Positions 4,486-36,840 of a stretch of 40,786 nt of DNA are shown here, in pieces. Origin of the DNA: a virus; the IMG/VR virus record IMGVR_UViG_3300045107_000561, positions 1 to 40,786 of that record; one strand, written 5' to 3'. The stretch's first letter is position 1; each line of letters starts with the position of its first letter. A program made the position numbers and the translations under genes. The notes under the pieces are model-generated. The model did not search any database and was not told the origin of the DNA. It saw only the letters and a list, made by a program, of their open reading frames with translations.

Positions 4486-5963
4486 CAACTTCCCCCGTAA
4501 AGAAAAACCCACGAGTAATCCGGACTGGAAACAGTCTGGGTACTCCCGTCCACATCGAAGACATTCACCAGCGTGTACTGGTAGGTGTTCCCGAAGGCGA
4601 CTCCCGAATCGGTGTAATCCGCCCCAGTCGGATTGTCCGTCACGGTGTCGAGCAACACGCCATCCCGGTAGATGCGTGTCCCGATATAGGTCACTCCGGT
4701 CGGCAATCCGGAAAGCGCATTGCTGGCGAACTCAAGGTTCAACGGCACGCTGTAGGAAGCACCGCTGAACCACGTTGGAGCCGGCAGGTTGAGACTCGGA
4801 AAAATATCCACGAAGGTCGTGGCGAACTTGACGTGGCGTGAACTGACCCAATCGAGTTCCATCCGGTCCGTGGCAAAACGTACCGGGTATAGAAATCCGG
4901 CCGTGTGGAGGTTGGAATCGACCTCGATGCCGAGCGCGGACGACAGCGTGCATCGCTCGGTATCCCCCGAGGCCGAGTCGAACGCGATGCGGCGAGGCAG
5001 GAACGTCCCGTCCTTCAGCCTGAACGCCATATCCCGACGATTCGAAGCGTCGGCGTAGTAATCGCCGAACCCGAACTTTTTGAAATCGAAAAACGTGTCC
5101 GCGTCGCCAATCGGCAACACCGGGGCAAAGTCGTTTTCCCAAGAGAACAACCAGAACGGCAGACGCTGCCCCGATCGCGAACTGATCCAGTCGAGCAACT
5201 GACCGATGCTCTCGCGTCCGTGGGCAGTCCAGGCGAACACCCGTTCGACGCGACTGGCCTGTTCAGGCGATGTCTGGAATTTTAGTCCGGTCCTCGGGTC
5301 GAATATGACCCGCCGGTCCGCCACCGAGATCGACAACTCGTCGGCTGTGTTCGCGGGGCGCAACAGTACCGGCAGATCGCGGTACTCCTCGGTGGTGAAT
5401 ACGCCGAAACGGCGCACGGACCGTTCCGTCCCCAAAAGTTCGAAAGAGGGCGAAACAGCCCGCATATCCTTCTTCTTGAAGACGCCGGACAGTTTCTCCT
5501 GAAGGTAACCGCTCCGGACCGGCACGATCACATCGCCCGGACGCCAGGAATTCGCCGTGGCCGAGATGGCGACCGCCGAGTCCGACACGAACAGCAGGTC
5601 CACCAACTCCCAGAGACCTGAATTCCGCCAGATCATCGCCCCGCCATCGTTGTCGAAATCCCGCCATCGGAAGTCCCCGTTCAGTACCGTCTGGCCGACT
5701 TCCACGGATTCGCCGATCCGGACGGCATCGGTCCAGATGGGAACATCCCAGACTTCTCCCTGAGCGCCGAAAAGCATGGCGTCGGCCCGTCGGCGTTCAT
5801 CGGCGGACGCCAGCAGGCATTGGTAATCAAGCGACCGGCGTGGGTTGTCGAGAAGCTCTGCTCGCTGCTCCGTCCCGTCGTCCGACACGATGACGCGCGT
5901 ATTGAATTCGAGGGCTTCCCGGACCGAACGTTTCCAGTTATGAGCGAACGACCACACTGGCAT
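4485..5963 (-). CDS. Distal tail / tail assembly protein
   Basis: 492 aa. The opening MPVWSFAHNWKRSVREALEF, followed by an EQR...PRRSLDY segment, is typical of the tail protein found between the tape measure and the BR0599 protein in transposable siphoviruses. The C-terminal 90 residues (IYRDGVLLDTVTDNP, then YQYTLVNVFDVDG) look like a fibronectin-III-type domain that could bind surface sugars or other tail proteins. It is placed directly after the tape measure gene, where the distal tail protein normally lies. It probably nucleates the tail tip. Family assignment is by N-terminal pattern and gene order. Confidence 0.7.
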   Translation of the reverse strand: MPVWSFAHNWKRSVREALEFNTRVIVSDDGTEQRAELLDNPRRSLDYQCLLASADERRRADAMLFGAQGEVWDVPIWTDAVRIGESVEVGQTVLNGDFRWRDFDNDGGAMIWRNSGLWELVDLLFVSDSAVAISATANSWRPGDVIVPVRSGYLQEKLSGVFKKKDMRAVSPSFELLGTERSVRRFGVFTTEEYRDLPVLLRPANTADELSISVADRRVIFDPRTGLKFQTSPEQASRVERVFAWTAHGRESIGQLLDWISSRSGQRLPFWLFSWENDFAPVLPIGDADTFFDFKKFGFGDYYADASNRRDMAFRLKDGTFLPRRIAFDSASGDTERCTLSSALGIEVDSNLHTAGFLYPVRFATDRMELDWVSSRHVKFATTFVDIFPSLNLPAPTWFSGASYSVPLNLEFASNALSGLPTGVTYIGTRIYRDGVLLDTVTDNPTGADYTDSGVAFGNTYQYTLVNVFDVDGSTQTVSSPDYSWVFLYGGS

Positions 5964-8900: not shown

Positions 8901-10149
8901 TCAGGGCGGCCAGCGATCCGCGAAGAACCGTCCCCGCAGTCTCGCCTTTGATACCGGAATTACCGAGGATGACGGCGGCGGCGGCCATTTCTTCGAGGCT
9001 TTGACCGGCTGTCTTTGCCAACGGTCCGGCATACTTGAAGGTATAGCCGAGCTGCTCAACGCTGATTGAGGATGAGTCGGCCGCTTTCACCAGGATGTCC
9101 GCGATTTTGCCGACATCCTTGGCCTCGTACCCGAACTGGTTCATCGTGTCGGTCGCGATTTCAGCGGCCCGACCCATTTCCAGTTCGCCGGCCACAGCCA
9201 GGTTGAGAACATCCGGCAAGGCTTGCAGCACCTGCTTCACGTTCAAGCCGGCGGCGGCCAGGTCGGTCTGGCCCTCGGCAACTTCCTTTGCTCCGAATTT
9301 TGACTTCGACCCGAGTTCGAGGGCCTGAGCTTCAAGCGCCTTCATCTCCTGACGAGTCGCCCCGGACTTCGCCCGGACCTTCAGCATTGCCGCCTCGAAC
9401 TCGGATGAGAATTTACCCGCGGCCGCGCTGAGGCCGACAATCGGGACAGTAAGAAACGCCGCTACCATCGTCCCGGCGTTCTCCAGTGCGCGTCCCACCG
9501 ACTCGATCCCCTGACCGACATCCTGAAGATTGACCTGGCCGGCGGCGTTCGAGGCATCCACGAAAGCGGCCTGCTCGTTCCGCAGCACTTCCACCAGCTT
9601 CTGCTGCTGCGCCGCGAGCGAACCGGCCTGCTTCTCGGCGTCCGCCATGGCCTTCGACTGCTCGACCAGCGCTTTTTCGGTCCGTTCGATTTCCTCCTTC
9701 AACGTGGCGGCTTCCTGCCGCAACTTGTCGTACGCCTCGCCTCTCGGGGTGTCCTTCAGCTTGTCGATGACACCGGTCTGAGCGGTACGAAGCCGTTCAA
9801 GCGCCTGCTGAAGCTCCTGTGATTTTTGCGAGTTGGCTGCGTATTCGGCCTCTGCCTTATTCAGTTGGCTCGCGACCTCGCGTACCGCCTCCATCAGACG
9901 TTCGTACTTCAGAGCCGTGGTCGCTGACGTGTCCCCCGCCGCGCGAACGCCCTGATTGACCGCCTGAAACGCGCCGACCAACGTCCCGGCCACCGCCCGC
10001 AGTCGTTCGAAATCTCCTCTCAACTCGCGAGAATCTTCCGCCGACCCGGACAGCCCTTTTTGCACCGCCGTCAGTTGCGACGATGCCGTCTGGATGCCCT
10101 GGGTCAGGACGGAGATGAGAAGTTCGAATTTCTGCTGCTCGGTCGCCAT
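5965..10149 (-). CDS. Tail tape measure protein
   Basis: 1394 aa, the largest gene. Residues 30-200 are coiled coil. Residues about 248-450 match the phage minor-tail/tape-measure core (FSSEFEAAMLKVRAKSG, SKFGAKEVAEG, LKNTA-like LAKTAGQSLEEMAAA). Hydrophobic helices occupy about 520-650 (AVIVVISGILAAIGPVVVVF). A glycine run lies near residue 850, more coiled coil runs to about 1200, and a Gly-rich hydrophobic end follows. The protein sets tail length and is ejected with the DNA. With about 0.15 nm of tail per residue it predicts a tail near 200 nm, an inference from the usual relation. It lies downstream of the chaperone and fibre genes. Confidence 0.95.
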   Translation of the reverse strand: MATEQQKFELLISVLTQGIQTASSQLTAVQKGLSGSAEDSRELRGDFERLRAVAGTLVGAFQAVNQGVRAAGDTSATTALKYERLMEAVREVASQLNKAEAEYAANSQKSQELQQALERLRTAQTGVIDKLKDTPRGEAYDKLRQEAATLKEEIERTEKALVEQSKAMADAEKQAGSLAAQQQKLVEVLRNEQAAFVDASNAAGQVNLQDVGQGIESVGRALENAGTMVAAFLTVPIVGLSAAAGKFSSEFEAAMLKVRAKSGATRQEMKALEAQALELGSKSKFGAKEVAEGQTDLAAAGLNVKQVLQALPDVLNLAVAGELEMGRAAEIATDTMNQFGYEAKDVGKIADILVKAADSSSISVEQLGYTFKYAGPLAKTAGQSLEEMAAAAVILGNSGIKGETAGTVLRGSLAALIDPSKEAEKTIQRLGITANDSSGKLLPLNQIILQLEQSGATTADVMKIFGQEAGNGMVTLLSKGSASLREMTGTMQNAGGATSTVAKVLGSGVMAQFQTLANGIEVVFIKIGQGLAPVLQPVLTFLTGTVMPILQRIADWFVAADPQIKAVIVVISGILAAIGPVVVVFGAIITALGGLVTSIGALVAAGATIKIVGLVIAGLAVILAEFIVVAGAWYLAIKTNFAGVRDVIVAVMNQAKGYIDIALTEITGFWNANSEKIIYALRLIVAYWDSLLKPVVAQAGKFIQFVLSNAAEYVAFAVRLISNAFMLVVNLLNGDLAGAWQNVKNIVATAAMFMANRVIDAANLIIENINRVIGWLGIAIPKLEKFNLLAGESKGQPSPGQRPLEMKPGHGGQSAAGFISGLSQNQKPGVKDPQKQPSGGGGGGGGGSETFITQLLQSAQLLKQINEAEFARLKQNADDAARDALDALEREQRGVEASYNARLISATTYYQQIANLRDASAAVEIAKLDETLSLERDKFEELEKAKAQLEAAPAKGKEDSKKQIDALRELTSQMTESANRIKGLEKEIERAKQKRADVNEESQRKINEGLRQEQEEIEELQRQYLELTGDDFANRRMSINKQADAELEKIRKGLSGQVSAGVDGEDPSAAQAAVEALDAAERAKLNTIQQTRAVKLAQVELDQRMAAIAEIQNRLKQDEENLDREALRLAISQYEVEARKKAMREGAADAIERELAAMRQLIATNPGLNNASNRRAVEGTQRNIDDLRFSVSSLQQDVQQRGVQAFEGLFQGIMSGSQSAGQVFMGFVSSVLGGISQMISKLLALWLVQKLVGLAMGFMGGGGAGSLGGKGLGSLGLPLKEFGGNVSKGEAVVVGERRPEIFVPGSDGYIFPSMQDLLRRATPRGMNDSGLRVPQGLAGMGMAGAAAATNEFLIATLFEPKTLARLMKSRPVKDAIINVVTGAPNTVRKATLGG

Positions 10150-16776: not shown

Positions 16777-17775
16777 TTATGCGAGGCGAACCCCGTGCAG
16801 TCGGGCCATGCAGCAGTTCGTCGCGGGATACAAACCGCCCACCCAATCGACGTTGGTCCGGTAGACGTGCCCACCCTCAAGCAGACCCAAGTCCTTGCCC
16901 ATCATCGGTTCGTACTGCCAGCCGCCGAGGTATTCCTCGCCGTACCGCACCGCGTAGATGCTGGTATGGGTGCTGTTGCCGGGGTCCGTACCGTCCGCCG
17001 CCTCGGTGATGGGGATGATCTTGGTCGCCTGGTCGGCCTTGTAGCCGATGTCTCGAATGACGGCGTTCTTGTAACGGGTGATGGACCGGTCAAGCTGGTC
17101 CTGTCCCTGAGAAAATCCACCGTTCCCGGCAAACTCCTTCGCCGCCGAATCCCACCGCCGCTGCATCGTGTCGTTGAGGTAGATCACCACACCCGTCCCA
17201 TCCGGCGAGGAAACGGACCAGAGCAACTGGTCGATCAGTTCCAGGAACTGCGCGAATGTCTTCGCCGTACGGTTGGCGAGCCTCAGATCGACCGCCCCGC
17301 CGGCGATCTTGTTCTCGGACCGGACGCCATACTTCTTACCGTCGTCGATTCGGGCCTTGAGGCCCACCAGCGAATCGACATTGCCGTCAACGTGGTTGTT
17401 GTTGATGAACTTGTCGTTCATGTCGTAGGCGACCGACTTGAGGTACGCCGACAACTGCACCGCGCGCGGATCAGCAATCTGGTTTTCGTCCTCGACGAGC
17501 GCCTTGTCCACGTCGATATTGTTGCGAATCAGGTACGCACTTTCCTGAAAGGGCGTCGGCGTTCCGCTGGTGGTCGGGCCGGGCGTGTTGAGCTTCACCC
17601 AGTCCACGGTCGGCAGATTGCCCTCGAACCGCGTCCCGTTCGCGATGAGGGTCTTCTTGTTCTTGAACGGGATGTCCTGCATGACCGACCCGTTCTCAAT
17701 CAGCGAAAAAACAATCGCCTGAATGAGCGGGTCGTTGGACATCAGCAGGTATTGCGTGAGCGTCAAAGCGGCCAT
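16777..17775 (-). CDS. Major capsid protein
   Basis: 332 aa from the ATG at 17775. AGGAG lies 9 nt upstream of this start, whereas the ATG at 17784 touches the ribosome site and is rejected. The N-terminal region (LTLTQYLLMSNDPLIQAIV) and the later segments (VVIYLNDTMQRRWDSAAKEF; SIYAVRYGEEYLGGWQYEP) match the capsid proteins found after a scaffold gene in transposable siphoviruses, of presumed HK97 fold. The gene follows the scaffold gene and precedes connector genes. There is no N-terminal protease-cleaved delta domain, consistent with a separate scaffold. Confidence 0.85.
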   Translation of the reverse strand: MAALTLTQYLLMSNDPLIQAIVFSLIENGSVMQDIPFKNKKTLIANGTRFEGNLPTVDWVKLNTPGPTTSGTPTPFQESAYLIRNNIDVDKALVEDENQIADPRAVQLSAYLKSVAYDMNDKFINNNHVDGNVDSLVGLKARIDDGKKYGVRSENKIAGGAVDLRLANRTAKTFAQFLELIDQLLWSVSSPDGTGVVIYLNDTMQRRWDSAAKEFAGNGGFSQGQDQLDRSITRYKNAVIRDIGYKADQATKIIPITEAADGTDPGNSTHTSIYAVRYGEEYLGGWQYEPMMGKDLGLLEGGHVYRTNVDWVGGLYPATNCCMARLHGVRLA

Positions 17776-17814
17776 GGCGGGCATCTCCTGTGGTGAGTGT
17801 CAGAGCCTTTCGGC

Positions 17815-18372
17815 TTACTTCCCGAACACCCCCGACAGCCGGGTCGGGTTCTTCGGGTCGAACTTCTTTTCCTTGTCCTTGTCGTCTTCCTTGCGGGCCG
17901 GATTTCCCGCCGGCGTCGTTACGCCAGCCGGCTTCAACATCGGGTACTGCTGGAGCAACGCCTGCAATCCCGCCTCGATGCCGTCGTCCTTCACGGTGTC
18001 CGGCAAGAGTTTCACCGCCAGTTCCGGGACAATCCCCAGCTTGCTCGCCGCCACGGCGACCTTCCCGGCGCGCGCTTCGGCCTGAGCCTCGCGAAGCTGT
18101 TTTTGCAGCCGTTCCGTTTCGCCCAGCTTCGCGTCTTCCTCTTCCTTCTGCTTCTTTTCGAACTCGGCAATCCGTTTCTGGGCCGCTTCGAGCTGTTTCT
18201 TCACGTCGTCATTTCCCCCGTCCGTCGCCGGTTGCGTTGGGGCAGCCGGCGCGGCTGGAGGAGTCGCCGCGCTCGCGGGCGCGGGAGACGGTGCCGCCGG
18301 AGGTGCGGACGGCTCCTGCGAAGGTGAGGGTTGCCCGTTGGTGGGCGTCGGATTGGCCGTTGGCGTGGACAT
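17815..18372 (-). CDS. Capsid scaffolding protein
   Basis: 185 aa. The first 50 residues are Pro/Ala/Ser/Thr-rich and disordered. Residues about 53-100 are a charged coiled coil (VKKQLEAAQKRIAEFEKKQK, ERLQKQLREAQAEARAGK). A short Leu-rich segment (LGIVPELAVKLLPDTV) and a lysine-rich tail follow. This is the classic layout of phage scaffold proteins, and the major capsid gene comes next. It is the first gene of the second late operon, downstream of the 9-bp repeat array at 18452-18478 and a leader hairpin. Confidence 0.85.
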   Translation of the reverse strand: MSTPTANPTPTNGQPSPSQEPSAPPAAPSPAPASAATPPAAPAAPTQPATDGGNDDVKKQLEAAQKRIAEFEKKQKEEEDAKLGETERLQKQLREAQAEARAGKVAVAASKLGIVPELAVKLLPDTVKDDGIEAGLQALLQQYPMLKPAGVTTPAGNPARKEDDKDKEKKFDPKNPTRLSGVFGK

Positions 18373-18409: not shown

Positions 18410-18451
18410 TACCGAGGGGGGTGCGAGCGCAACACGTCAAAACCCACGAAA

Positions 18452-18478
18452 CGCACAAACTGCACGATCTGCACGATC
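18452..18478. promoter_or_regulatory. Late-promoter repeat array A (three 9-bp units)
   Basis: Units CGCACAAAC, TGCACGATC, TGCACGATC lie head to tail without gaps. The 18-bp core CTGCACGATCTGCACGAT (18460-18477) is identical to 25265-25282. Its near edge lies 88 bp from the scaffold ATG, against 84 bp in the other array. On the minus strand both arrays continue into GTGCGTTT then G(T/C)GGGT. This looks like an activator binding array of a late promoter, with 9-bp periodicity close to one helical turn. Confidence 0.65.
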
Positions 18479-18482
18479 ACGC

Positions 18483-18520
18483 AAAAACGAAACCGCCCGC
18501 CGGATTCCTCCAGCGGGCGG
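18483..18520 (-). terminator. Intrinsic terminator of the first late operon
   Basis: On the minus strand CCGCCCGC (18520-18513) pairs with GCGGGCGG (18500-18493) around a 12-base loop and is followed by TTTCGTTTTT. It lies just downstream of the small gene that ends at 18547 and just upstream of the repeat array that begins the second late operon. Confidence 0.75.
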
Positions 18521-18546
18521 TCAAAATGGGTGTCCTGTCTCTATTG

Positions 18547-18744
18547 TCAGGATCGTCGCGGGGAGACTGGCTTGGCGAGCAGATCAGCTAAAACTTCTTC
18601 GTAGGTCATCCCGGCCAAACGTTCGAGTTCAGATTTTACGCCAGGCGAAACGGAAGGATTTTCACCGACTTCGGCACGCTCATCCAGACGGTAGCTGCCA
18701 TCAGGCTGCACGGAATTCAATGGGTCAAAACGGTTTTCGCTCAT
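18547..18744 (-). CDS. Small protein downstream of MuF-JAB, immunity or accessory candidate
   Basis: 65 aa; the ATG overlaps the last 20 bp of the MuF gene. It is acidic with a helical C-terminal half (VKSELERLAGMTYEEVLADLLAK). A terminator follows, so it is the last gene of the first late operon. MuF proteins with polymorphic C-terminal domains are often followed by a small immunity gene. This is a possible parallel, but it could equally be a small head assembly factor. No family recognised. Confidence 0.55.
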   Translation of the reverse strand: MSENRFDPLNSVQPDGSYRLDERAEVGENPSVSPGVKSELERLAGMTYEEVLADLLAKPVSPRRS

Positions 18745-20299
18745 AATAAAATTTCGGCCCCCCCTTTTTCATATCGAGGTGTTTTTTAAAATCCGTCCAT
18801 ATCTGATGCATGCTCCGTCCCTGTGCTACTTTCAGCAGGGTGATCAAGTGGCCACCATAATCTTCGGCGATCCAGTTCCAAGTATCTTCACCCGGCTCAA
18901 CGCTCATAGTGTAGCGTACTGGTTCACCGTCCTCAATCGCCACCACAACCATCTCTTTGACTTCGTGTTTGATGGCAAAGGAGAAATCATCCAATGAAAA
19001 ACTGCCTCCCGTTTCAGGATGATTATGGACGACGGATCGTTGGCGAAAAATGCTTTCTTCTTCCTTTGCTATATGTATTGAAAACTCATTGCCCCGTTTC
19101 CGACCGACCAACGCCCCACTCTCATCAATAGCAGCAACAACTTCCTGATCCAGTTCGAGGATATTCGACTCGAAAACCTCCCTGGGCGTTCTGAATGTCT
19201 GCTTTCCGCCTCGCAGATAGAATCGAGCCTTCTCGTCCCCGAGAATATCCGTCAACGCCCTCGGGCCGACCTGCGGACCATAACCCTTGCCATTGTCCCG
19301 GTAGCCGACGAACTGATCGAAATCAGTTATTTCCCCGTCACGATACGCCTGTAACGCCGCGGGACCGAGAATAACGGTCTGCTGTTCCTCGGTCAGCTTG
19401 GTGAATCGATTGTCCAGAGAAATTACCGCAGGAATATTTTTGGGATCATCTTCAAGGATGGGGATCGGCACGCACCGGCAGTTCGGATGCGCTCGCTGCG
19501 GCTCCTGAATCTCGAACACCTTCCCGTCGAGCGCCCAGCAGGCCGGACAGGTGCGACTGGTCCCCGCCGCTACCCAACGCCACATCTTCACGCCCATGGA
19601 ACGATAGCCTTCAAGGGACGCCTCGCGCGCGCTCATCATTACGGACGAGTGGGCGGCCAGCTCGATACGCCGGGCGATGGCCGGGTCGGCCAGCCGGTTG
19701 CGTTCGTTGCCGTCCACCTTCGCCCTGATGCGGGTCACGATCCGGCGCGGCGGCTCACCGAGGGCGAGGCCCTCCTCGATGGCGGACTGCACATCCCGGT
19801 CAGCCTGTAGCTTCAGGTCGCCGGCCAGCCGACGAAAAGAGGATTCGAGCGGAGAACCGTCACCGGTCAGCCCCACAAACGCCTGGAGTTGGTCATCCGC
19901 GAAACGTCCGGTGGTCAGACTGAACGTGGAGGCCCGGTTGCCGAGGGGCGTGACGAGCTTCGCCGCACGGAGGCTTTCGCGGACGTAGGTTCCGGCCTTC
20001 TTCACGACTTCCAGTTGACGGGCTTGAGTCTGATCTGCGGCTTCGAGGGCGAGTGTCGTAATCGTCTCCGCCAGGTCCGCTTTGAACCTAGTCAGCCGCT
20101 GGATCTCATCGTTCCACGAAATCCGAGGGTCCTGGCCGCCGGCGACCGCGTCCGCCACACGATTGGCGAGTTCGTTGAGCCGTTCCGTCAACGTCTCCCA
20201 GGCTGAGTGGTACGCCTCAAGAAGTCGCATCCGCTCGCGCTCGCGGCCCTTGAGCAGGTCGCGCTGGAAATCGCGTGCAGTGGAGAACAGGTCGGACAC
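18725..20299 (-). CDS. MuF-like minor head protein with C-terminal JAB-like domain
   Basis: 524 aa. Residues about 160-280 are the phage Mu protein F-like (minor head) domain: SREASLEGYRS-type helix (AREASLEGYRSMGVKMWRW), then CPACWALDG and the HPNCRC signature (residues 251-276). Residues about 290-524 are an extra domain with RSVVHNHPETGG...SLDD at 421-438, that is H425-x-H427-x7-S435-x2-D438, the JAMM/JAB metal motif, near a GALVG turn as in RadC-type JABs. The catalytic Glu normally found upstream is not clear. The DNA for this domain is more AT-rich than the N-terminal half, suggesting an exchanged module. The N-terminal part serves head assembly after the portal. Confidence 0.8.
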   Translation of the reverse strand: MSDLFSTARDFQRDLLKGRERERMRLLEAYHSAWETLTERLNELANRVADAVAGGQDPRISWNDEIQRLTRFKADLAETITTLALEAADQTQARQLEVVKKAGTYVRESLRAAKLVTPLGNRASTFSLTTGRFADDQLQAFVGLTGDGSPLESSFRRLAGDLKLQADRDVQSAIEEGLALGEPPRRIVTRIRAKVDGNERNRLADPAIARRIELAAHSSVMMSAREASLEGYRSMGVKMWRWVAAGTSRTCPACWALDGKVFEIQEPQRAHPNCRCVPIPILEDDPKNIPAVISLDNRFTKLTEEQQTVILGPAALQAYRDGEITDFDQFVGYRDNGKGYGPQVGPRALTDILGDEKARFYLRGGKQTFRTPREVFESNILELDQEVVAAIDESGALVGRKRGNEFSIHIAKEEESIFRQRSVVHNHPETGGSFSLDDFSFAIKHEVKEMVVVAIEDGEPVRYTMSVEPGEDTWNWIAEDYGGHLITLLKVAQGRSMHQIWTDFKKHLDMKKGGPKFYYERKPF

Positions 20300-20391
20300 G
20301 TTTATTTGCCCTGAGACGCGCCGGACGACACGTTGGGCGTTCCGCGCGTAAAAATAATTTGAGAACGATTTAGGCGCGATTGCCGGGTGGT

Positions 20392-20607
20392 TCAGAACCG
20401 ATCCACGAGCCAGTCGAGGCTGCGCTGGATCAGTACCGCGACCGGAACGTCGCCGATCATCCGCTCCGCGTGTGATTTCGCGATTCGGAGACGGTCGTTC
20501 TCCTCACGGAGTCGTTCGTTCTCATCTCGCAACCCTTGGTTTTGGTCTCGGAGTTCAGCGAGATGTCTTTTTTGCACCTCAATCAAGTCGTCGCGTTCGT
20601 CGTTCAT
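20392..20607 (-). CDS. Small coiled-coil protein after the portal
   Basis: 71 aa, joined to the portal gene by an ATGA overlap. Residues 5-48 form an almost perfect charged heptad coiled coil (LRDQNQGLRDENERLREEN). A hydrophobic, non-charged end (VPVAVLIQRSLDWLVDRF) follows. It may be a small assembly factor binding portal or MuF protein. No family recognised; the overlap and the lack of rare features support that it is expressed. Confidence 0.6.
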   Translation of the reverse strand: MNDERDDLIEVQKRHLAELRDQNQGLRDENERLREENDRLRIAKSHAERMIGDVPVAVLIQRSLDWLVDRF

Positions 20608-21941
20608 TGGAAATTCGCATTCTGCGCGAGCGTCTCCCGCGCGGCCGCGTCTTCAAGCGCTTTCTTTTCTTCTTCCTTCACCGGGTCGTAGCCAAGTTCC
20701 GAAAGCAGTGTCGCCCGTGAGACGCCGAGATTTGCCTTGATGGTCGCCGCCGACATCTGCTCGGCGACATTGCGCGGGACGATCTCGCCCCAGTGCAATT
20801 CCACTTTCGCGCCGGTGATACCGCCGATTTCGAGCAGGCCGTCCACCAGATGCCTGACCAGTCTTCCGTAAGTCCGGCGCTTCCGCTCGGTGCGACGAAT
20901 CACCGGGCCGTACAGAATCTGAAGCGCGACACCGGAAAGCTGGCCGACGTTCTCCAACTTGCCCGTGACGATCTCCGGGATCTCCGTCAGTGCGAACAGT
21001 TCCTCGCGCAGCTTCGCCCGCCGCTCCTCGCCGTAGCGCAGTCCTTCGGCGTTCGTTTCGAGGTTTTCGATTTCGCCGTCACCGACGAAAGCGACCCCTC
21101 CGATCCCGATTTTCAGATCCTGCACGGCCATTTTCTTCGCAATCGTTTTCGGCCAGGCGTGGATGCGCGTCGCCCTCACCAGCATGCTGTCCAGCCGGTG
21201 GAGCGCCTTGATCAGCTTCAGGACTTGCGGGCTGAGGTCCGCTCGGCCGTAGAAGGCATTTGGCATGATCAGGTTCTGGGCCTGCATCACCGGACAGAAC
21301 GAATAGTTCCAGGTCAACGGATCGCCTTCCTCAACGCGTTTGCCTTTCGGGTCGATCCCAACCCGTTGAATCGACCACCCGCCACCGTCCAGCCGTTCGT
21401 ATCGCTCCTGAACGATTTTCACATCTCCGGCGGCCACAGTTTCAAGCTCGAAGGTGTGAGCGTAGGCCCTTGGCTTCGAGAAATCCTCCGCCGGGAATTC
21501 AGCGGCCCAGTTGAGAGGGTCGCCAACCTGCACCCGAGGCTTTCCGTCCTCCAGCACGATGCGCGCCCAGGCGTGGCCGAACACCCCGCCGTTTACCGCC
21601 AACTGAAACAAATCGACCCCTCGCTGCTCCTCCGGCCAGACCTCGGCCAGGAACGCATCCGCCCGCGCGTTGCCCGTGGAGATTTTCAGGTCGTCGCCGA
21701 ACAGGTATTCAGCGCCCTTGTCCACGATCAACTCGGCGAAGCCCGCCTGGACGTTGTCGTCAGGCTCGTCCTTTTTGATCTTGAGCGGCGGTGGAAGTTC
21801 ACCATTGTACGCACGCCAGGCTTCGCGTCCCTCAATCGAACGACGGGACTCCTCGAAGGTGCCGCCCCAAAACGTCGAGCCGGTGAGGTTCGAGGGCTGC
21901 CACATTGACCGGATCGACTGAAACCATTCCGTCAGGCCCAT
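20604..21941 (-). CDS. Portal protein (SPP1 gp6-like)
   Basis: 445 aa. It lies between large terminase and MuF genes, the standard portal position. Characteristic segments are the WRAYNGELPPPL opening, FAELIVDKGAEYLFGDDLKI (clamp region), and LREELFALTEIPEIVTGKLENVGQLSGVALQILYGPVI in the stem/crown part (the 'G.(L).SG.AL' pattern of SPP1 gp6-type portals). The dodecameric ring forms the DNA entry channel and nucleates the head. It overlaps the terminase gene by 10 bp. The alternative HK97-type family fits less well. Confidence 0.9.
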   Translation of the reverse strand: MGLTEWFQSIRSMWQPSNLTGSTFWGGTFEESRRSIEGREAWRAYNGELPPPLKIKKDEPDDNVQAGFAELIVDKGAEYLFGDDLKISTGNARADAFLAEVWPEEQRGVDLFQLAVNGGVFGHAWARIVLEDGKPRVQVGDPLNWAAEFPAEDFSKPRAYAHTFELETVAAGDVKIVQERYERLDGGGWSIQRVGIDPKGKRVEEGDPLTWNYSFCPVMQAQNLIMPNAFYGRADLSPQVLKLIKALHRLDSMLVRATRIHAWPKTIAKKMAVQDLKIGIGGVAFVGDGEIENLETNAEGLRYGEERRAKLREELFALTEIPEIVTGKLENVGQLSGVALQILYGPVIRRTERKRRTYGRLVRHLVDGLLEIGGITGAKVELHWGEIVPRNVAEQMSAATIKANLGVSRATLLSELGYDPVKEEEKKALEDAAARETLAQNANFQ

Positions 21942-23386
21942 TGCCCATCCCCCTTTGAATACAGATCCTCGCCGTGTTCCACATTGCCCAGCCAGACCAC
22001 CGACAGCGATTGCACTGCCAACGATACGGCGTCAACGAAGTCGTCGTGCTTTGCTTTCGGGAACGCGCAGACCTCGGACAGGAACTCATCCAGGAACGGA
22101 TTCCGGACAACCGCGACCTTGCCGCTTTCGGCCCGCGTCGCCCAGGGCAACGCCCGTGACCGCTTGTCCTTGTCCACGCGCACCCCTTTGAAACCGATGC
22201 CCACCAGTTCGGGTTTTCGAAGGAGTTGCTGCACGGCGGCCAGTCCGTGCAGAGCCTCTTCAATGCAATGGAGGGACTGCCGCTCCAACAACATCGTTTC
22301 CCGGATGCGCTTCTCGATGTCCGGCCATTCCTTCCGCGCCCGCCAGTAGTCCCGGATGTACAGCGTCCCATCGTCGCCGACCGCGCAGGCCGCCGACGCG
22401 GTGAAGTCCGCCGTCTGCTTCGTCGAAGTAGCCAGATCGTACCCGCGCACCCACCGCAGATTGGCCGGCACATCCGCCGGGTCGAGAATCCGGAACCATT
22501 CTTTCTGAAACAGACCACCCGAACGAGAAACCGGCTGCCCTTGATACAACGCCGAAAACGCATATTCGCCCTGCCGCTTTTTGATGCGCTCCAACGCCTT
22601 CTCGTCGTACCGCTGGGGACATAACGCCTCCCCCGGTCTGCGCCCAAGTGGGTCATCTTCTTCGGCCAAGGCTGGGAGATTGATGACGGTCCATTTCTCG
22701 CCGTCTTCATGGGTCATCTCCGAAATGAGGCGCCCTGTCAGATCATCCTCATGCCAACGAGTGTGGATGACCACAACCGCCCCGCCCGGCTCAAGCCGCG
22801 TGTACACGTCCTCGTTGAACCATTCCCCAACCGTGTCGCGTGTGACTTGGGAATCAGCCGTTTTTCTTCCCTTGTATGGATCGTCGATGATGATCAGGTC
22901 CGCGCCCGTCCCCGTGACACCCGCTCCCACGCCCGCCGCCCGGATTCCGCCTTCGGCCTTCGTTTCCCATTCCTCGACCGCCTTGCGTTCGGCGTTCATC
23001 GCGACTCTGGGCTTGACGATCCGCTTGATTTTTCTTGAAAACTTGTTGGCCAGAAACTGCGAATACGACCCGATAATGATTCGAGTCGCGGGGTCCTTTT
23101 CGAGTCGCCAGGCTGCGTATCGCACCGTCACCAATTCGGATTTACCATGGCGTGGTGGAACGGAAAGGATAAGGCGCTTGATTTTGCCGGTGGTTACGTC
23201 GTCCAGAGCCTTGCAGATATAGGCGAGATGCTTGAACCGCCAGTTGTATGCGGGCGTGACTTCCTCCAACCAGTCCGGACTGAATTTTTTGACGGTCGCG
23301 CCCAGCGAAATGCCGAATTGCGCGCACACCCGTTCGCGCGTCGCCTTGAGTCGCTCAAGTGGGTCGGAATTCGTTCTTTTCGCCAT
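21932..23386 (-). CDS. Large terminase subunit
   Basis: 484 aa. ATPase domain: Walker A SVPPRHGKSE at residues 75-84, Walker B LIIIDDP at 164-170, and coupling segment VVVIHTRWHEDDLTGR. Nuclease domain: GYDLATSTKQTADFTA (Asp317) and AKHDDFVDAVS (residues 446-455) supply metal-binding aspartates. The protein packages DNA into proheads and cuts it. In Mu-type phages packaging starts from the integrated end and takes host flanking DNA, which suits the host-like DNA beyond the right end here. Overlaps the small subunit gene by 32 bp. Confidence 0.95.
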   Translation of the reverse strand: MAKRTNSDPLERLKATRERVCAQFGISLGATVKKFSPDWLEEVTPAYNWRFKHLAYICKALDDVTTGKIKRLILSVPPRHGKSELVTVRYAAWRLEKDPATRIIIGSYSQFLANKFSRKIKRIVKPRVAMNAERKAVEEWETKAEGGIRAAGVGAGVTGTGADLIIIDDPYKGRKTADSQVTRDTVGEWFNEDVYTRLEPGGAVVVIHTRWHEDDLTGRLISEMTHEDGEKWTVINLPALAEEDDPLGRRPGEALCPQRYDEKALERIKKRQGEYAFSALYQGQPVSRSGGLFQKEWFRILDPADVPANLRWVRGYDLATSTKQTADFTASAACAVGDDGTLYIRDYWRARKEWPDIEKRIRETMLLERQSLHCIEEALHGLAAVQQLLRKPELVGIGFKGVRVDKDKRSRALPWATRAESGKVAVVRNPFLDEFLSEVCAFPKAKHDDFVDAVSLAVQSLSVVWLGNVEHGEDLYSKGDGQWA

Positions 23387-23912
23387 AGAGCTTCCTGGCC
23401 CCGTCGATCACGTCGTCATACACATTGTTAAGTTCACGGACGAGACGCTTGCCGCGTTCGCCCGGCAGCGATCCGGCGATTCCCATCAATCGGTCCATCA
23501 TCGTGCAGAACGCCTCGAAGTTATCCTTGCCCGCGTCCAGCCTCGCCAGCGCGTCCGTCGTCAACTGGCAATAGGCCCGGTGCTGCCAAATCAGGTCCGT
23601 GTCCGTTGAACCATGCGCGTCGATGGCATCCTTGATGACGCCCCGGACTTCCTCGACTTCGAGCAGCAGCTTCTCCGCGCTCGACGTGCCGGCGACCTTC
23701 GAGGCCGCGAGCAGCTTTCGCTCCAGCGCCGACTTCCAGCCGTACTTGTCCGGCCAGCCCTCTCGCGTCCCGCGCGTAACGAGGTTGTCCTTCGACCAGC
23801 CGGAATAGACGCGCCGCATCTCCGTCTCGATCCGGTCGTAATGCTGACCGTTGAAGCGCAGATACAGCTCGAAGCACATCTCCACGGCTGCATGGTCGTA
23901 TTTTCGCGGCAT
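23355..23912 (-). CDS. Small terminase subunit-like protein
   Basis: 185 aa. The first 60 residues form a helix-turn-helix-like region (YDHAAVEMCFELYLRFNGQH, IETEMRRVYSGWSKDNLVTR). A long helical middle and an acidic C-terminal part follow (ELNNVYDDVIDGARKLYGEK). Directly upstream of the large terminase and overlapping it, it should recognise packaging DNA, in Mu-type phages near one transposon end. Family not named with certainty, but context and the N-terminal DNA-binding pattern agree. Confidence 0.75.
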   Translation of the reverse strand: MPRKYDHAAVEMCFELYLRFNGQHYDRIETEMRRVYSGWSKDNLVTRGTREGWPDKYGWKSALERKLLAASKVAGTSSAEKLLLEVEEVRGVIKDAIDAHGSTDTDLIWQHRAYCQLTTDALARLDAGKDNFEAFCTMMDRLMGIAGSLPGERGKRLVRELNNVYDDVIDGARKLYGEKNEFRPT

Positions 23913-23916
23913 GGGT

Positions 23917-24162
23917 TTACCCAGACGACGTGTCTTCTCCGCGTCGCGAACGACGCCACGCCCGACGCAGTATCCAGATGGTGCTGATCGCCGCGCCGAT
24001 GAACGTCAGCAAAGACGCCCCAAGTCGGAACGCGGCGCTCAGGTGATCGATCAACGCCCAGTCCAGAGCGAATACCGTTCCGAACGCAAACCAGCCGGTT
24101 GCCATGAGTTTCACTTCCGGAACCATATCCCGCTCAAGGAGCGCGGCGATAAAGGGTTTCAT
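23917..24162 (-). CDS. Two-TM membrane protein, holin candidate
   Basis: 81 aa from the ATG at 24162, which lies just after the endolysin stop (TGAAATG). Two predicted membrane helices (about residues 17-37 and 46-65) and a basic tail (RRAWRRSRRG) are the layout of class II holins. It follows the endolysin gene directly. The three-TM protein upstream is the rival holin candidate; the two could act as holin and antiholin. Confidence 0.65.
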   Translation of the reverse strand: MKPFIAALLERDMVPEVKLMATGWFAFGTVFALDWALIDHLSAAFRLGASLLTFIGAAISTIWILRRAWRRSRRGEDTSSG

Positions 24163-24163
24163 T

Positions 24164-24808
24164 TCAGGTCTCCACCGGCGTGAACGCCACAATCCGGAAC
24201 GCCGAAAATGGTGAAATCACTCGTTGTCGTCGATAGACGCCGTTACCGTTCGACTGACTGCCACGCACACCGCTCGACGTGTTGGCCTCAATGGTCGAGC
24301 CGGACCGCCTCTCCCATGCGGTGACATATCCGACGTGGCCGCCGCGTTCACGCACCCAGACGACGATGTCGCCCGGCTTGGGTTTGTATCGTCCCAGCAG
24401 CACGTCTTGAGCCGACTGCGAATTCGGACGAATCCACGACCGTGCCCAGGCGGTCCGCAGTCGGGGCGACCTGACCCTGCCCTGGTCGTTACACCAGGAG
24501 ATGAAACTGGAACAGTAGTTCGACCCGACCGGCACGCCGCAGAACCGATTCCAGGTGTCGATCTCCGGTCCGCGATTGCGTTGCCGCTCAACCGTCCCGA
24601 CGTATCCGGCCGCGACCGTCAGATGGCGCGGCGCTCCGGCTTTGACCGCCCGCGGCTTGGGGGCCGGAACGACCGCCGGAGGGCAGTCGCACGGACACGG
24701 ATTGGCCTGGGCCGCGTCAACGACCAGCGGCAAAGCCACCGTGAATGACCACAGCAAGAGCAAGAAAAAACACTGATACCGCAACAGGGTTTTCTGAAAT
24801 TTTTTCAT
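24164..24808 (-). CDS. Secreted CHAP-domain endolysin
   Basis: 214 aa from the ATG at 24808. Residues 1-34 are a signal peptide or signal-anchor (MKKFQKTLLRYQCFFLLLLW, then a hydrophobic run to VVDAA). A Pro/Cys-rich linker follows (NPCPCDCPPAVVPAPKP). The catalytic part has C99 in NYCSSFISW, the KPGDIVVW strand, H158 in GGHVGYVTAW and ANTSS after it, a CHAP-type cysteine peptidase/amidase that cuts peptidoglycan. The export signal means the holin may only need to depolarise the membrane. The first 92 bp overlap the upstream membrane-protein gene in another frame. Confidence 0.85.
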   Translation of the reverse strand: MKKFQKTLLRYQCFFLLLLWSFTVALPLVVDAAQANPCPCDCPPAVVPAPKPRAVKAGAPRHLTVAAGYVGTVERQRNRGPEIDTWNRFCGVPVGSNYCSSFISWCNDQGRVRSPRLRTAWARSWIRPNSQSAQDVLLGRYKPKPGDIVVWVRERGGHVGYVTAWERRSGSTIEANTSSGVRGSQSNGNGVYRRQRVISPFSAFRIVAFTPVET

Positions 24809-25181
24809 ACAGGTCCCACTCCGGAGCGCACACATAGTCGTAGAGCTGAAGGATGGTCAGAGCCAGACCAACCCCGGCCAACATGAACGCGAACGCCGAA
24901 ATCTCGATGAAGGACGTGAGCGTGTACGCCACGCTCGCCGCGCCAAGCAGGTCGAGCAACACGGTAAACAACACGCGCCGCCGCCGCCGAGCAGCTTTCG
25001 CCAGGACCGGCGTCGCCGATTCATTCGGGTTGGGGAACTGCTCGCGCAGTTCGGAAATCAGTTCGGAAACATTGGCGACCGTTTCAGCCGTCGCGCTCAC
25101 CGCCGGAACGGCGGCTTTGATTGCGGAGACCGCTTGTTCGAGTTGCGTGATTCGCTCGACGAGTGAAAGCTGATTTCCCAT
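24717..25181 (-). CDS. Three-TM membrane protein, holin-like, first gene of the late operon
   Basis: 154 aa. Residues 1-45 form an amphipathic coiled coil (LVERITQLEQAVSAIKAAV). A basic stretch (KAARRRRR) precedes three predicted membrane helices (about 70-90, 94-114 and 131-151). Its 3' end is nested in the signal-peptide region of the endolysin gene. Being first in the late operon and beside the endolysin, it is a likely holin or holin regulator. The long cytoplasmic coil is unusual for a holin. The upstream region carries repeat array B. Confidence 0.7.
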   Translation of the reverse strand: MGNQLSLVERITQLEQAVSAIKAAVPAVSATAETVANVSELISELREQFPNPNESATPVLAKAARRRRRVLFTVLLDLLGAASVAYTLTSFIEISAFAFMLAGVGLALTILQLYDYVCAPEWDLYEKISENPVAVSVFFLALAVVIHGGFAAGR

Positions 25182-25247
25182 GCTGTTGCCTCCCGTACTT
25201 GACGAGCGGTGTTATGATGGGACTCGCGAAACAACTCACCCGCAAAA

Positions 25248-25283
25248 CGCACGATTTGCACAACCTGCACGATCTGCACGATG
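25248..25283. promoter_or_regulatory. Late-promoter repeat array B (four 9-bp units)
   Basis: Units CGCACGATT, TGCACAACC, TGCACGATC, TGCACGATG are contiguous. The array shares an identical 18-bp core with array A at 18460-18477, has one more unit, and lies 67 bp from the start of the first late gene. On its other side, about 40 bp away, is the plus-strand helix-turn-helix gene. On the minus strand a CATAAC-like -10 lies near 25212-25217. Confidence 0.65.
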
Positions 25284-25323: not shown

Positions 25324-25587
25324 ATGCAGCAACTGAGACTGCCACTCCAGATTGAGCCGTTGATGAGTCTGGCCGAGATTGAGCGCCTGCTTGTGAAAAC
25401 CCGCGCCATCTCACCGGTCCCGTGTCGGCACACCCTGATCGCCTATTGCGAGGACGGCACGCTCGATGGTCGGCAACTCGGCCGCAAGCGGACCTGGTAC
25501 GTCACGGAAAAAAGTGTCGTGAGTTGGCTGGTCTATCTCCAGACCGGGAAATGGCCCGAAGGCATCAAGCTGATCACCGCCGCCTGA
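25324..25587 (+). CDS. Small helix-turn-helix regulator, late-activator candidate
   Basis: 87 aa from the ATG at 25324. The middle has the excisionase/MerR-type helix-turn-helix pattern: MSLAEIERLLVKT..., then a 'CEDGTLDGRQLGRKRTWYVTEKSVVSWL' core with the typical GRQLGRKR wing and a following helix. It is alone on the plus strand between the cargo and the late genes, is followed by its own terminator, and faces the late operon across array B. By position it would take the place of Mu C or Mor. No similarity to those proteins is visible. Function is inferred. Confidence 0.7.
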   Translation: MQQLRLPLQIEPLMSLAEIERLLVKTRAISPVPCRHTLIAYCEDGTLDGRQLGRKRTWYVTEKSVVSWLVYLQTGKWPEGIKLITAA

Positions 25588-25593
25588 AGCACT

Positions 25594-25627
25594 GAAGCCC
25601 GCCAACTTGGCGGGCTTCGTCGTTTTT
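25594..25627 (+). terminator. Intrinsic terminator after the helix-turn-helix gene
   Basis: GAAGCCCGCC pairs with GGCGGGCTTC across a five-base loop, followed by GTCGTTTTT. The stem is the same as in the terminator at 40556-40586. Confidence 0.85.
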
Positions 25628-28237: not shown

Positions 28238-29122
28238 TCAAAAACGTCGATGCATTCCGACAACCAGCCCCTTTATCTCGACCCGTTCGGGTTCATAGGT
28301 TTGTTCGCCATATCGAGGGTTTGAGGATTCCAGAACAATTAGTCCCCTGCGTTTGAACCAACGCTTCATGGCCGCGCCGTCCCCATCAATTACCGCCACC
28401 ACCATCTTGCCTTCGGTGATGTCCAAGGTGTTGACGCAGACGATGATATCACCATCAAAAATCCCGTCACCATTCATGCTGTCCCCATCAACAATCAGAG
28501 CAAAAACCTTCTTGCCCCACGTTTTGACGTAGTCGCCGGGCACATGGACCCACTCCTCACTGTCCGGATTTATGAAAAGCGGCTTACCGGCTGCAATCTT
28601 TCCCCACACAGGTATCGCGACAAACTCTTCGTCAAAATCAATAAACCTGAAACCAATGCTTGGACCGGGCTGGTCTGTGTAAATCCCTCGTTTGATCAAA
28701 CCATCGGTCACTAAATCCGCCGCAAAATCTTCTAATGGTTTCCCGACCTTTTCAGCTTCACGCCGTATCTTGTCGATAACACGCGAATGAAGGTCAGCAA
28801 TAAGTGTGTTCTCTGGTGGTGTGTCAGGTGGGATGATTTTAGCGTAGGGAACCAGCCTCGCAATATCTTTGTCCAGAGTTTCCTCTTTTTTTTCTTCTTC
28901 CTCTTTTTGGACAAACATTTGCCCTTCACCAGTCAGTAGCCAATGTAAGGAGACGCCTGAAAGATGGCTGATTCGAAGAAGAGTGTCTTTTTTTGGTATT
29001 GACTCATTAGCCCAAGCTCCCACTGATGCAGGCGTGAGATTTAAAGTACGAGCAACAGCAGAAGCATTTGGGGCATTTAGTGCCGCCATACATCTTTCCA
29101 GAAAGTTTGATGGAGTTGCCAA
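28238..29122 (-). CDS. CI/LexA-type phage repressor (S24 self-cleaving)
   Basis: 294 aa, starting with TTG (29122) after AAGGA. The N-terminal helix-turn-helix (residues 5-62, ASAVARTLNLTPASVGAWAN) binds operators. A long linker carries a Glu/Lys run. The C-terminal S24 domain (about 160-294) has a cleavage site Ala178-Gly179 in IPVWGKIAAGKPLF, catalytic Ser215 in VDGDSMNGDG and Lys253 in AAMKRWFK. It should be inactivated by RecA-stimulated self-cleavage after DNA damage. Mu c protein lacks this domain. It is transcribed divergently from the early operon. Confidence 0.9.
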   Translation of the reverse strand: MATPSNFLERCMAALNAPNASAVARTLNLTPASVGAWANESIPKKDTLLRISHLSGVSLHWLLTGEGQMFVQKEEEEKKEETLDKDIARLVPYAKIIPPDTPPENTLIADLHSRVIDKIRREAEKVGKPLEDFAADLVTDGLIKRGIYTDQPGPSIGFRFIDFDEEFVAIPVWGKIAAGKPLFINPDSEEWVHVPGDYVKTWGKKVFALIVDGDSMNGDGIFDGDIIVCVNTLDITEGKMVVAVIDGDGAAMKRWFKRRGLIVLESSNPRYGEQTYEPERVEIKGLVVGMHRRF

Positions 29123-33914: not shown

Positions 33915-35720
33915 ATGAACGCAATCGCTTTTTTTCCAAATCGTCGGGATGACAATCAGGAAGACGACCGGCAATCGCGGTCAACGTCGCGAGTCCGACT
34001 GGGTGAACTGTCCCAGCGGGAAATTCGTGACGCGATGGCCGGTCGGGTGGGCGAGGACGCCGCCAGTGAAGCCGCGAGACTGGCGGCTCACTACGGCGTC
34101 AGCGTTTCGCGGATTTACGCGGTCTCGCGCGAGGTCCGTGCGCAGCGGAAACCTCGCGCCGACAAGGGCAAGCGTCAGGCCGATTTGTTCGGTGATGCCG
34201 GATTGCTCTACGCGGCCCAGTTGGTGGCCCAGCGCCACTTCAAGCCTGAATTGGCGTTGCAACAGGCTCGTCTGAACGGTTTCGAAATTTCAATTTCAGA
34301 CGCCACCTTTCTGCGGTTGCTTCGAGACCACGGCCTTGACCGCGGGGCCGCGCGGCGGAATCTCACGCCGTTTCGTCGCTGGGAAGCGAAAGCGCCCGGC
34401 GAAGTGTTCCAGATTGACGCTTCGGGAGTGAAAGACCGGTCGGGAATGTACTCCTGGTTCCTCGACATTCGGTCGCGCCGGATCATTAAACTCGAAGACT
34501 CCCGCAACCACCCCAACGACAACCCGGAACACCAGAGGATCTGGAAACTGACGATGAAGGACGATTTCTCGCGTCGTCAGTTCACCCGGTTTTACGCCAT
34601 CCGCGCCCTGACCTCGATGGAGATGATCGAGTTTCTTCTCGCTGGATTTCGCGAAATGGGCGTCCCTCGGATGTTGTACTCGGACCGGGACAACACGATT
34701 TACAGCGAGCGCACGCAGGCCGCCGGCGAGTTGCTCAACCAGTTGTTTGCCGATTCCGGTGGATTCCGTTTGGAACGTCACACGGCGCACAACGCAAAGG
34801 CGACCGGCAAGGTCGAGAGTTCGCACAAATGGGTTGAGGAATTCGAACGTCTCATAGCACACAAGCTGACCACGACGCCCAAGTCGGCGCCGCAGCCGAC
34901 CATCGAGGAACTGAACAAGTTCGCGGCGTGGATGTGCGAGCGTTACAACACGCGCGTCCACCGGACAACGGGGATGACTCCGATGGAGCGGTGGCACTCG
35001 GTGATGCACACGATGCGGATACCGCCGGACAAGACGCTGGACGCGATCTTCCGTGCGGATCGGTTCACCAAGCCGATCAATCCGGACTGTGCCATCGAGC
35101 ATGCCGGCGCCCGGTGGCAACTGCCCCGGAAGCGTCCGTTTACCGACTGGGCGACCCTGGGCGTCAAGATCGACGTGCTTTTCCCGGTGGAACTCGACTG
35201 GTTCCTGGTCTTCAGCCCAGACAAAACCGAACGGTTTCAGGTGCTGAAGACTGAGCAGGTCGCCGACGCGGCCGGACAGTTCAAGGCCCCGGAGGAAACC
35301 GTCCGCCAAAAGAGTCTGAAACGAATCGAGGCAGCCTCGAAGGAACGCAAGGCAAAGATGAAGGAGACCGGCGCAACCGAGTTGACGCTCGGTTTCGACG
35401 GCGACGTTCAGGCCCCGGTGGCCGCCAAAACCCCTCGATTCCCCAAGCCCAAGCTCGAAACCGATCCCGCGCTTCTGTCGGCTCTGACGGCTGGCGCGTC
35501 GGATGTCGTTTACGGCGGTCGCCGTCTGGCCACGGCGGTCGAGGCCGCCCTGTGGCTGGTCGAGGAAGGCCACGTCGAAGCCCCCATCTCACCCGAACTC
35601 AAAGCGTGGGTGACGCGGCTGCTCCAGGGCCGCGACCACATCACCACGCAGGAACTGCTCGAAAAACTCGAAGCCCGCGAGAACAGCCCGCTGCGGGCGG
35701 TTGGAGGGAACAATGGCTGA
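33915..35720 (+). CDS. DDE transposase (MuA/TnsB/Tn552-like)
   Basis: 601 aa. N-terminal HTH at about 50-76 (AARLAAHYGVSVSRIYAVSR) and a second DNA-binding part at 105-140. Retroviral-integrase-type core with Asp168 (EVFQIDAS), Asp257 (MLYSDRDN) and Glu301 (ATGKVESSHK), the DDE triad. A Mu-type C-terminal beta region follows (IEHAGARWQL at about 390) and an Ala/Leu-rich tail. It cuts and joins the phage ends at 18-62 and 40653-40697 and drives replicative transposition. Overlaps the ATPase gene by 8 bp. Layout is nearer to Tn552/BcepMu-type enzymes than to Mu A. Confidence 0.95.
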   Translation: MNAIAFFPNRRDDNQEDDRQSRSTSRVRLGELSQREIRDAMAGRVGEDAASEAARLAAHYGVSVSRIYAVSREVRAQRKPRADKGKRQADLFGDAGLLYAAQLVAQRHFKPELALQQARLNGFEISISDATFLRLLRDHGLDRGAARRNLTPFRRWEAKAPGEVFQIDASGVKDRSGMYSWFLDIRSRRIIKLEDSRNHPNDNPEHQRIWKLTMKDDFSRRQFTRFYAIRALTSMEMIEFLLAGFREMGVPRMLYSDRDNTIYSERTQAAGELLNQLFADSGGFRLERHTAHNAKATGKVESSHKWVEEFERLIAHKLTTTPKSAPQPTIEELNKFAAWMCERYNTRVHRTTGMTPMERWHSVMHTMRIPPDKTLDAIFRADRFTKPINPDCAIEHAGARWQLPRKRPFTDWATLGVKIDVLFPVELDWFLVFSPDKTERFQVLKTEQVADAAGQFKAPEETVRQKSLKRIEAASKERKAKMKETGATELTLGFDGDVQAPVAAKTPRFPKPKLETDPALLSALTAGASDVVYGGRRLATAVEAALWLVEEGHVEAPISPELKAWVTRLLQGRDHITTQELLEKLEARENSPLRAVGGNNG

Positions 35721-36840
35721 AGCTGCTCTCAAGAGCGCGGCGCCCACGGTGGACGCCCAAAAAATTGCCCGCCTCCTGACGCGAGAGCATCAGGGGCGGG
35801 GAGTGAATATCTCCGAAATTTGTCGTCGATTGGGAGGCCCGGCTGAAGGTGCCTCCCGATCAACGGTCCACGCGCTGATGAATGGAACGGCCTCTCCCAA
35901 GGTCGTCGCCAAACTTTCAACCCGCATCCTCGCCACGTTTCAGGGTGGCGAGAGCAAGGAGACTGAATCCATGCCTGCAAATCGTAGCGTCCTCTCACCC
36001 GAGGCGCAAATCCACTTCGGCCTGTCCGGCGACCCGTTCCGCCCGCAGGTGCGGATTGAACCCTACACCAACAAGGCGCTCGACCAGGTCTACAAGCGCG
36101 CGCTGAATGCCCTCCGGTATCAGGGGTTCGTCTCGATCCTGGGCGACCCCGGAAGCGGCAAATCGACGCTCCGGCGCCGGTTGATGGCCGAATCCGCCGC
36201 GTCCAACGGGAAGCTCAGGCTGCTCTGGCCTGAGTTCATCGACCCGACGAAGGTCACCCCGACCTCAATTGTCACCTACGTCCTGTCCCAGTTGAATCAG
36301 GCTGTTCCGATGAACGCCATGGCGCGACAGGCCCGGCTCGTGCAGCACCTGGCCGACCTCGCCGGCGACGATGTGCGCGTCGCGCTCGCGTTCGACGATT
36401 GCCACACGCTGCCCGACCACACCCTGTCCGCTCTCAAGCGGATTTGGGAATGGGAATCCGGATCGTATTCGGGCCTGCTCGGTCTGCTGCTTCTCGGCCA
36501 GCCGCATTTTAAGCACCGGCTGGAACGGGTGAACTTCCGCGAAATCGCCTCGCGCCTCGATGTCGTGGACATGCCCGAGTTTCGGTCCAAAGCCGGGCGG
36601 GCGACCCCGGCGGCGTGGGAATACGTCACCTACCGCCTTGGCCTGGTCGGCGGCTCCGCCGAGGCTCTCTTCGAGCGTGACGCGGTGGACGAACTGGCCA
36701 AGGCCAATCCGACGCCTCTCTCCCTGGGGAATGCCTGCAACGCCGCGTTGAACCGGGCGTTCCTCGCTCAGGAAAAGAAGGTCACCCGGCTGATTGCCGG
36801 AGCCAAGGACGAGCCGACCGCGATCAGACTGGCCGGCTGA
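35713..36840 (+). CDS. MuB/TnsC-like AAA ATPase, transposition target selector
   Basis: 375 aa from the ATG at 35713, which has GGAGGG upstream and overlaps the transposase stop. N-terminal Cro-type HTH (residues 15-75, GVNISEICRRLGG; STVHALMNGTASP). The AAA part opens FGLSGDPFRPQ; Walker A GDPGSGKST (144-152), Walker B VALAFDD (223-229), then LLLLGQPHFKHRL and EIASRLDVVDMPE. MuB and TniB/TnsC-type ATPases bind target DNA and activate the transposase; the HTH-AAA order is that of MuB. Shared operon with the transposase supports the role. Confidence 0.9.
   Translation: MAEAALKSAAPTVDAQKIARLLTREHQGRGVNISEICRRLGGPAEGASRSTVHALMNGTASPKVVAKLSTRILATFQGGESKETESMPANRSVLSPEAQIHFGLSGDPFRPQVRIEPYTNKALDQVYKRALNALRYQGFVSILGDPGSGKSTLRRRLMAESAASNGKLRLLWPEFIDPTKVTPTSIVTYVLSQLNQAVPMNAMARQARLVQHLADLAGDDVRVALAFDDCHTLPDHTLSALKRIWEWESGSYSGLLGLLLLGQPHFKHRLERVNFREIASRLDVVDMPEFRSKAGRATPAAWEYVTYRLGLVGGSAEALFERDAVDELAKANPTPLSLGNACNAALNRAFLAQEKKVTRLIAGAKDEPTAIRLAG

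Follow-up and report, generated by a model that had tools for sequence, protein, structure and literature searches.

In a Mu-like transposable phage, two tandem arrays of 9-bp direct repeats head the two late-type operons, and we propose, at slightly less than an even chance, that they are operators for a small winged HTH (wHTH) protein encoded beside one of them. The phage is contained in a virus record of 40,786 bases, which was analysed along its whole length and is called the window here. Its gene content includes a MuA-like transposase (33915-35720, plus strand) and a MuB-like protein (35701-36840, plus strand), which together span 33915-36840 and mark the phage as transposable and Mu-like. 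The host phylum is probably Acidobacteriota, and array letters of the same kind are dispersed in some chromosomes of that phylum.

Late operons and their repeat arrays

Both operons run leftward, and both are labelled late from their gene content. Late operon 1 comprises genes for lysis, TerS, TerL, portal and MuF. Its first gene, starting at 25181, encodes a small hydrophobic, holin-like protein without a family match (24717-25181). The operon further contains an endolysin-like gene (24164-24835) and the genes for the terminase large subunit (TerL; 21932-23386), an SPP1 Gp6-like portal (20604-21941) and a MuF-like head morphogenesis protein (18725-20299), all on the minus strand. Late operon 2 (scaffold, capsid, tail), on the same strand, starts at 18372 with the scaffold gene (17815-18372), part of which is 42% identical in the relative G546 described below, and includes the GP7-like major capsid gene (16777-17784). 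A terminator-like hairpin with a T-run on the minus strand (18483-18522; stem 18522-18491) ends operon 1 directly before the first array, as a preliminary description of this DNA had proposed. On the other side of operon 1 lies the rightward wHTH gene (25324-25587), directly followed by a plus-strand hairpin with a T-run (25593-25619), so that a single-gene transcript is likely. Elsewhere in the window a repressor is encoded at 28238-29122, and a DNA methyltransferase gene at 39612-40283 matches two separate profile regions with a gap between them and looks internally shortened.

Array A (18452-18478, minus strand) consists of three units in the leader of late operon 2, which read CGCACAAAC TGCACGATC TGCACGATC on the plus strand. 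Array B (25248-25283, minus strand) has four units, CGCACGATT TGCACAACC TGCACGATC TGCACGATG on the plus strand, and separates late operon 1 from the wHTH gene. One extra, weaker unit adjoins each array at its low-coordinate side (18443-18451, CCCACGAAA; 25239-25247, CCCGCAAAA). The 18-mer common to both, CTGCACGATCTGCACGAT, occurs exactly twice in the window. The copy at 18460 is 88 bp away from the start codon at 18372, and the copy at 25265 is 84 bp away from the one at 25181; when up to three mismatches are allowed there are three matches, all inside the arrays, against 0.04 expected from dinucleotide shuffles. On the late (minus) strand, both arrays continue into GTGCGTTT and GGGT. The positions, units, distances and minus-strand continuation given in the preliminary description were all reproduced.

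The best period in both gaps is 9 (p<0.002 each, the score being reached in 0 of 500 shuffles), with self-matches of 21/27 around array A and 20/27 around array B. It had been argued that such units are in phase with the helix; this argument is loose, since 9 bp is less than the B-DNA turn of about 10.5 bp. The chance of two random intergenic positions landing in the two late-leader gaps of the window is about 0.006, a figure whose denominator counts several larger gaps that apparently hold ORFs and which rises to about 0.03, a rough upper-bound estimate, without them. A scan with the position weight matrix (PWM) of the array-B unit revealed no third array in the window, the next-best site scoring at shuffle level, and none at the Pp-like (tail) position. 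Similarly, no convincing shared -35/-10 was found in the four leaders, which have weak, post hoc similarities only.

Related phages and the adjacent wHTH gene

The closest relative in IMG/VR is IMGVR_UViG_3300037462_000738 (G546; loci L215 and L371), whose TerL is 56% and portal 47% identical to those of the window. This phage carries CGGATTTAA arrays in the same two gaps and in the same orientation, with a unit unrelated to that of the window. The first array (3302-3326) is located between MuF and scaffold, in a free gap of about 82 bp, and the second (10107-10131) separates operon 1 from a divergent homologue of the wHTH gene; both have period 9 (p<0.002) and self-matches of 19 and 21 (of 27). 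No dispersed family of the unit CGGATTTAA was detected in 119 Acidobacteriota genomes. Two 9-bp repeats in the early region of G546 and one in its endolysin gene were set aside because they lie inside ORFs. By sequence comparison, G546 is an independent test of array placement, and no other evidence speaks as strongly for a role at the late operons; G546 also bears out the earlier statement that arrays head both. Exact matches to the 18-mer in viral and genome collections proved to be coding coincidences in unrelated taxa.

Acidobacteriota prophages were found via a two-row transposase profile, and in every one examined a small wHTH gene occupies the equivalent site or lies close to it. Relatives keep the protein singled out in the preliminary description beside array B. 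The gap of array B (B gap) was compared in ten genomes: the window, G546, G695, G703, G789, G790, G794, G795, G822 and G826. In G794 it holds a clear 9-bp array, TTCACGATT TCCACTATT TTAACGATT, which ends at the wHTH start codon (self-match 18/27), and in G795 a weak period of 9 (16/27; p=0.008 for period 9, 0.19 over all periods). In both genomes the array directly precedes the wHTH start codon, which would fit autoregulation. No comparable array family was seen in about 400 kb of each of the two host chromosomes, a sample which a rare family would escape; at least these phages, therefore, do not seem to have picked up a common host repeat. The prophage remnant in G822 (TerL 54% identical) has a B-gap array of the window's GCAC family in the same orientation (22/27). 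The B gaps of G695 and G703 contain 12-bp arrays of ATCGAAAAGTTT type, and those of G826 and of the rearranged G789 contain no 9-bp array. Array A has a counterpart in G546 only, and no arrays were found upstream of scaffold in 12 phages whose capsid proteins are 47-56% identical.

Several of these gaps have features of their own. The 12-bp arrays (L376/L377 in G695, L378/L379 in G703), with 3-4 units each, immediately precede the first leftward gene and follow a terminator-like hairpin. In G790, late operon 1 and the wHTH gene flank a tRNA-Met gene (L388:12243-12317, late strand), and in the G826 gap (L390) a hairpin with a T-run (AGAACCACCTCGCGTTAGCGGGTGGGTTCTTTATTTT) is repeated in about three tandem copies. 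G789 (L387) has three wHTH paralogues in one direction (2464-2739, 4978-5301 and 5364-5645 on the reversed strand).

The window's wHTH protein, the candidate array binder, has 87 aa, and relatives conserve it at a syntenic position. An alignment of eleven homologues centres on a P-x-P-S/C-R-x-T...G core, and 6 of the 11 match HTH_17 (best E 6.9e-6), the window protein's own match being weak (E 0.012). Its AlphaFold (AF2) model, built from a two-sequence alignment, is a winged HTH with a mean pLDDT of 79. The best PDB fold matches of this model are BldC (6ama) and the Pukovnik Xis (4j2n), at non-significant E values of 0.34-0.61, and a profile-sequence search of PDB with the protein returned nothing relevant; the modelled likeness to BldC and Xis is consequently a lead, not proof. 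The HTH_17 group includes BldC, Xis and RdfS, of which RdfS and Xis assemble into filaments on DNA and make only loose demands on its sequence (PMC11963761). A binder like these proteins would allow a constant period with changing letters.

Dispersed host arrays and the competing explanations

The pattern GCACRANNYGCACRANNYGCAC has 79 matches in the Acidobacteriota genome G818 and 102 in G835, and the reversed-pattern control has 0. Five other genomes have 2-11 matches (11 in G825, 6 in G822, 6 in G805), with few or none elsewhere, and most members of this Acidobacteriota order lack the arrays. Host units include TGCACGATT, TGCACGAAA, TGCACAAAA, CGCACAAAA and TGCACGATC, and a PWM of the host unit gives the two arrays of the window 35.4 and 30.3 bits, whereas shuffles reach 9.9 at most. 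Both sets share the unit TGCACGATY, the period of 9 and the left-to-right order of unit types, in which CGCAC units precede TGCACGAT units. Judged by these letters, the window arrays are members of, or drawn from, the dispersed Acidobacteriota family. The idea of an element peculiar to the phage was thus not upheld. The outcome that the preliminary description had named as refuting, a common host dispersed repeat, holds in part: near-identical arrays are scattered in some Acidobacteriota chromosomes.

In host DNA, the arrays have no evident link to promoters. Among 38 intergenic contexts, defined by ORF calls only and with a few overlapping loci, 20 are co-directional, 9 divergent and 9 convergent, which is the random expectation and suggests that host arrays are not promoter-bound. 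Since the family is dispersed without orientation preference, such arrays need not be phage operators. Unlike those of the window, host arrays often come with flanking repeat parts. Polar, 9-bp-phased arrays (...CGCACAAAACGTATCAAACCGCACAAAATGTATCAAAGTGCACGATTTGCACGAT...) are present in intergenic DNA of G818, G835, G825, G822, G805 and G687 (e.g., L418, L455-L474), often with a hairpin-like repeat, GTCAGAACCGGGAGCGATAGCGACCGGGTTC, behind them. No publication on dispersed 9-bp GCAC arrays of Acidobacteriota was found. Verrucomicrobiota and Planctomycetota were also considered as host phyla and were rejected, since neither a dispersed family nor a close transposase turned up there.

The arrays could then be ordinary dispersed repeats of the host lineage, lodged in two of the rare non-coding gaps that a compact phage genome offers and without a role in late transcription, and we regard this as a serious possibility, though one with the chances somewhat against it. 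The abundance of the pattern in G818 and G835, the recognition of the window arrays by the host PWM and the random gene context of host arrays all speak for it. So does G822, whose genome has few such arrays and yet has one in the B gap of its prophage remnant, and so does the other repeated hairpin in the B gap of G826. However, passive lodging does not readily account for arrays in both late-leader gaps, in the same orientation, in the window as well as in G546, nor for the B-gap array of G794, whose host shows no such family in 400 kb. By a rough count, arrays per non-coding base are also more frequent in the window than in the densest host sampled. A different possibility is that the arrays are late-promoter elements bound by another protein of phage or host, such as a Mor/C analogue or a nucleoid protein of the host, in the manner of C at Plys and PI of Mu. 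In terms of Mu gene order, the two operon breaks with arrays correspond to the positions of these C-dependent promoters. C activates the lys, I, P and mom promoters of Mu from a site just upstream of -35 (PMC4461284). We nevertheless consider another binder improbable: the search for a Mor/C-type activator (PF08765) in the window and G546 gave a best score of 11.8 bits, inside the transposase gene, against a cut-off of 24.9; the Pp-like position bears no array; and a plausible binder is encoded directly beside array B. Less probable still, and very unlikely, is a non-transcriptional role as a leader element in RNA, a packaging site or an enhancer of transposition. The arrays would be inside transcribed leaders if transcription starts upstream of them, and array B adjoins the operon with the terminase genes, but the window has no Rfam match anywhere, and no tRNA either, and the two copies stand where operons begin, distant from the genome ends and with no transposase gene adjoining.

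On balance, we favour the reading of the arrays as operators over the passive lodging of a host repeat. It is supported by the 9-bp period, kept at these positions while the letters change, by the wHTH gene kept beside array B, and by the lack, in the window and in G546 alike, of a Mor/C-type activator that scores above the cut-off. It is weakened by the poor fold matches (best E 0.34), by the restriction of array A counterparts to G546, and by the several B gaps that have 12-bp arrays, a tRNA or no array instead of a 9-bp array. If the arrays are operators, the wHTH protein would bind them head to tail, each 9-bp unit taking one protomer in the manner of BldC, and would thereby control both late operons, as an activator, the role given to it in the preliminary description, or equally as a repressor; at array B, it would also control its own gene. 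The array letters would have been taken over from the host family or would be common to it. We infer each of these steps: the binding, the control of transcription, and the take-over or sharing of letters. The more general statement that Mu-like phages of Acidobacteriota switch their late genes by a small wHTH protein on 9-bp arrays, with letters common to host repeats, appears rather unlikely as it stands.

The consequences differ between the readings. As operators, the arrays would be a late-gene control element which replaces the Mu C system and brings a BldC-like direct-repeat mode into phages. Its simple rule, a constant period with a changing sequence, could be checked across many prophages. 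As host repeats, they would indicate that a large and apparently undescribed family of dispersed 9-bp arrays of Acidobacteriota also reaches phage genomes. Should both be true, phage late control would be linked to a host repeat family. Under either reading, the 9-bp arrays scattered in some host genomes merit explanation.

Comparison with known regulatory systems

No description of such 9-bp arrays at late operons was found in the literature searched, which left out most subscription papers. The late region of Mu is comparable in that, in a transposable phage, a repeated regulatory sequence heads the lysis-terminase-portal and scaffold-capsid operons, and common sites are present at the heads of the lysis and scaffold operons of the window. 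In contrast to the single C site of Mu, the window has direct-repeat arrays, and counterparts of Pp and Pmom were not found. As the defining Mor/C protein was sought and not found, the system of the window is not a member of the Mu C system.

The filament-forming wHTH proteins of the excisionase/RDF type (lambda Xis, Pukovnik Xis, RdfS) resemble the window's system in the small HTH_17-type protein; they multimerise on DNA, and some of them also regulate transcription. However, the window arrays are at operon heads and not at an att site, and no tyrosine recombinase is annotated. A transposable phage needs no excisionase for a tyrosine recombinase.

The closest parallel is provided by regulators of the BldC family. 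Streptomyces BldC forms head-to-tail multimers in which each protomer occupies one 9-bp direct repeat, and this solved structure is a precedent for the cooperative binding of a small protein to 9-bp direct repeats that the preliminary description had suggested (PMC5859096). The window protein cannot be assigned to the BldC family with confidence. It is phage-encoded and would act at late operons, its likeness in sequence and fold is weak, and the window units differ from AATTXXXX(C). Like the BldC system, on the other hand, the window combines a small protein, predicted to be a single-domain wHTH, with extended operators, here putative, of tandem 9-bp direct repeats in variable number, and such repeats are present as candidate sites in arrays A and B and in relatives. 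By this analogy, the mode of action would be BldC-like.
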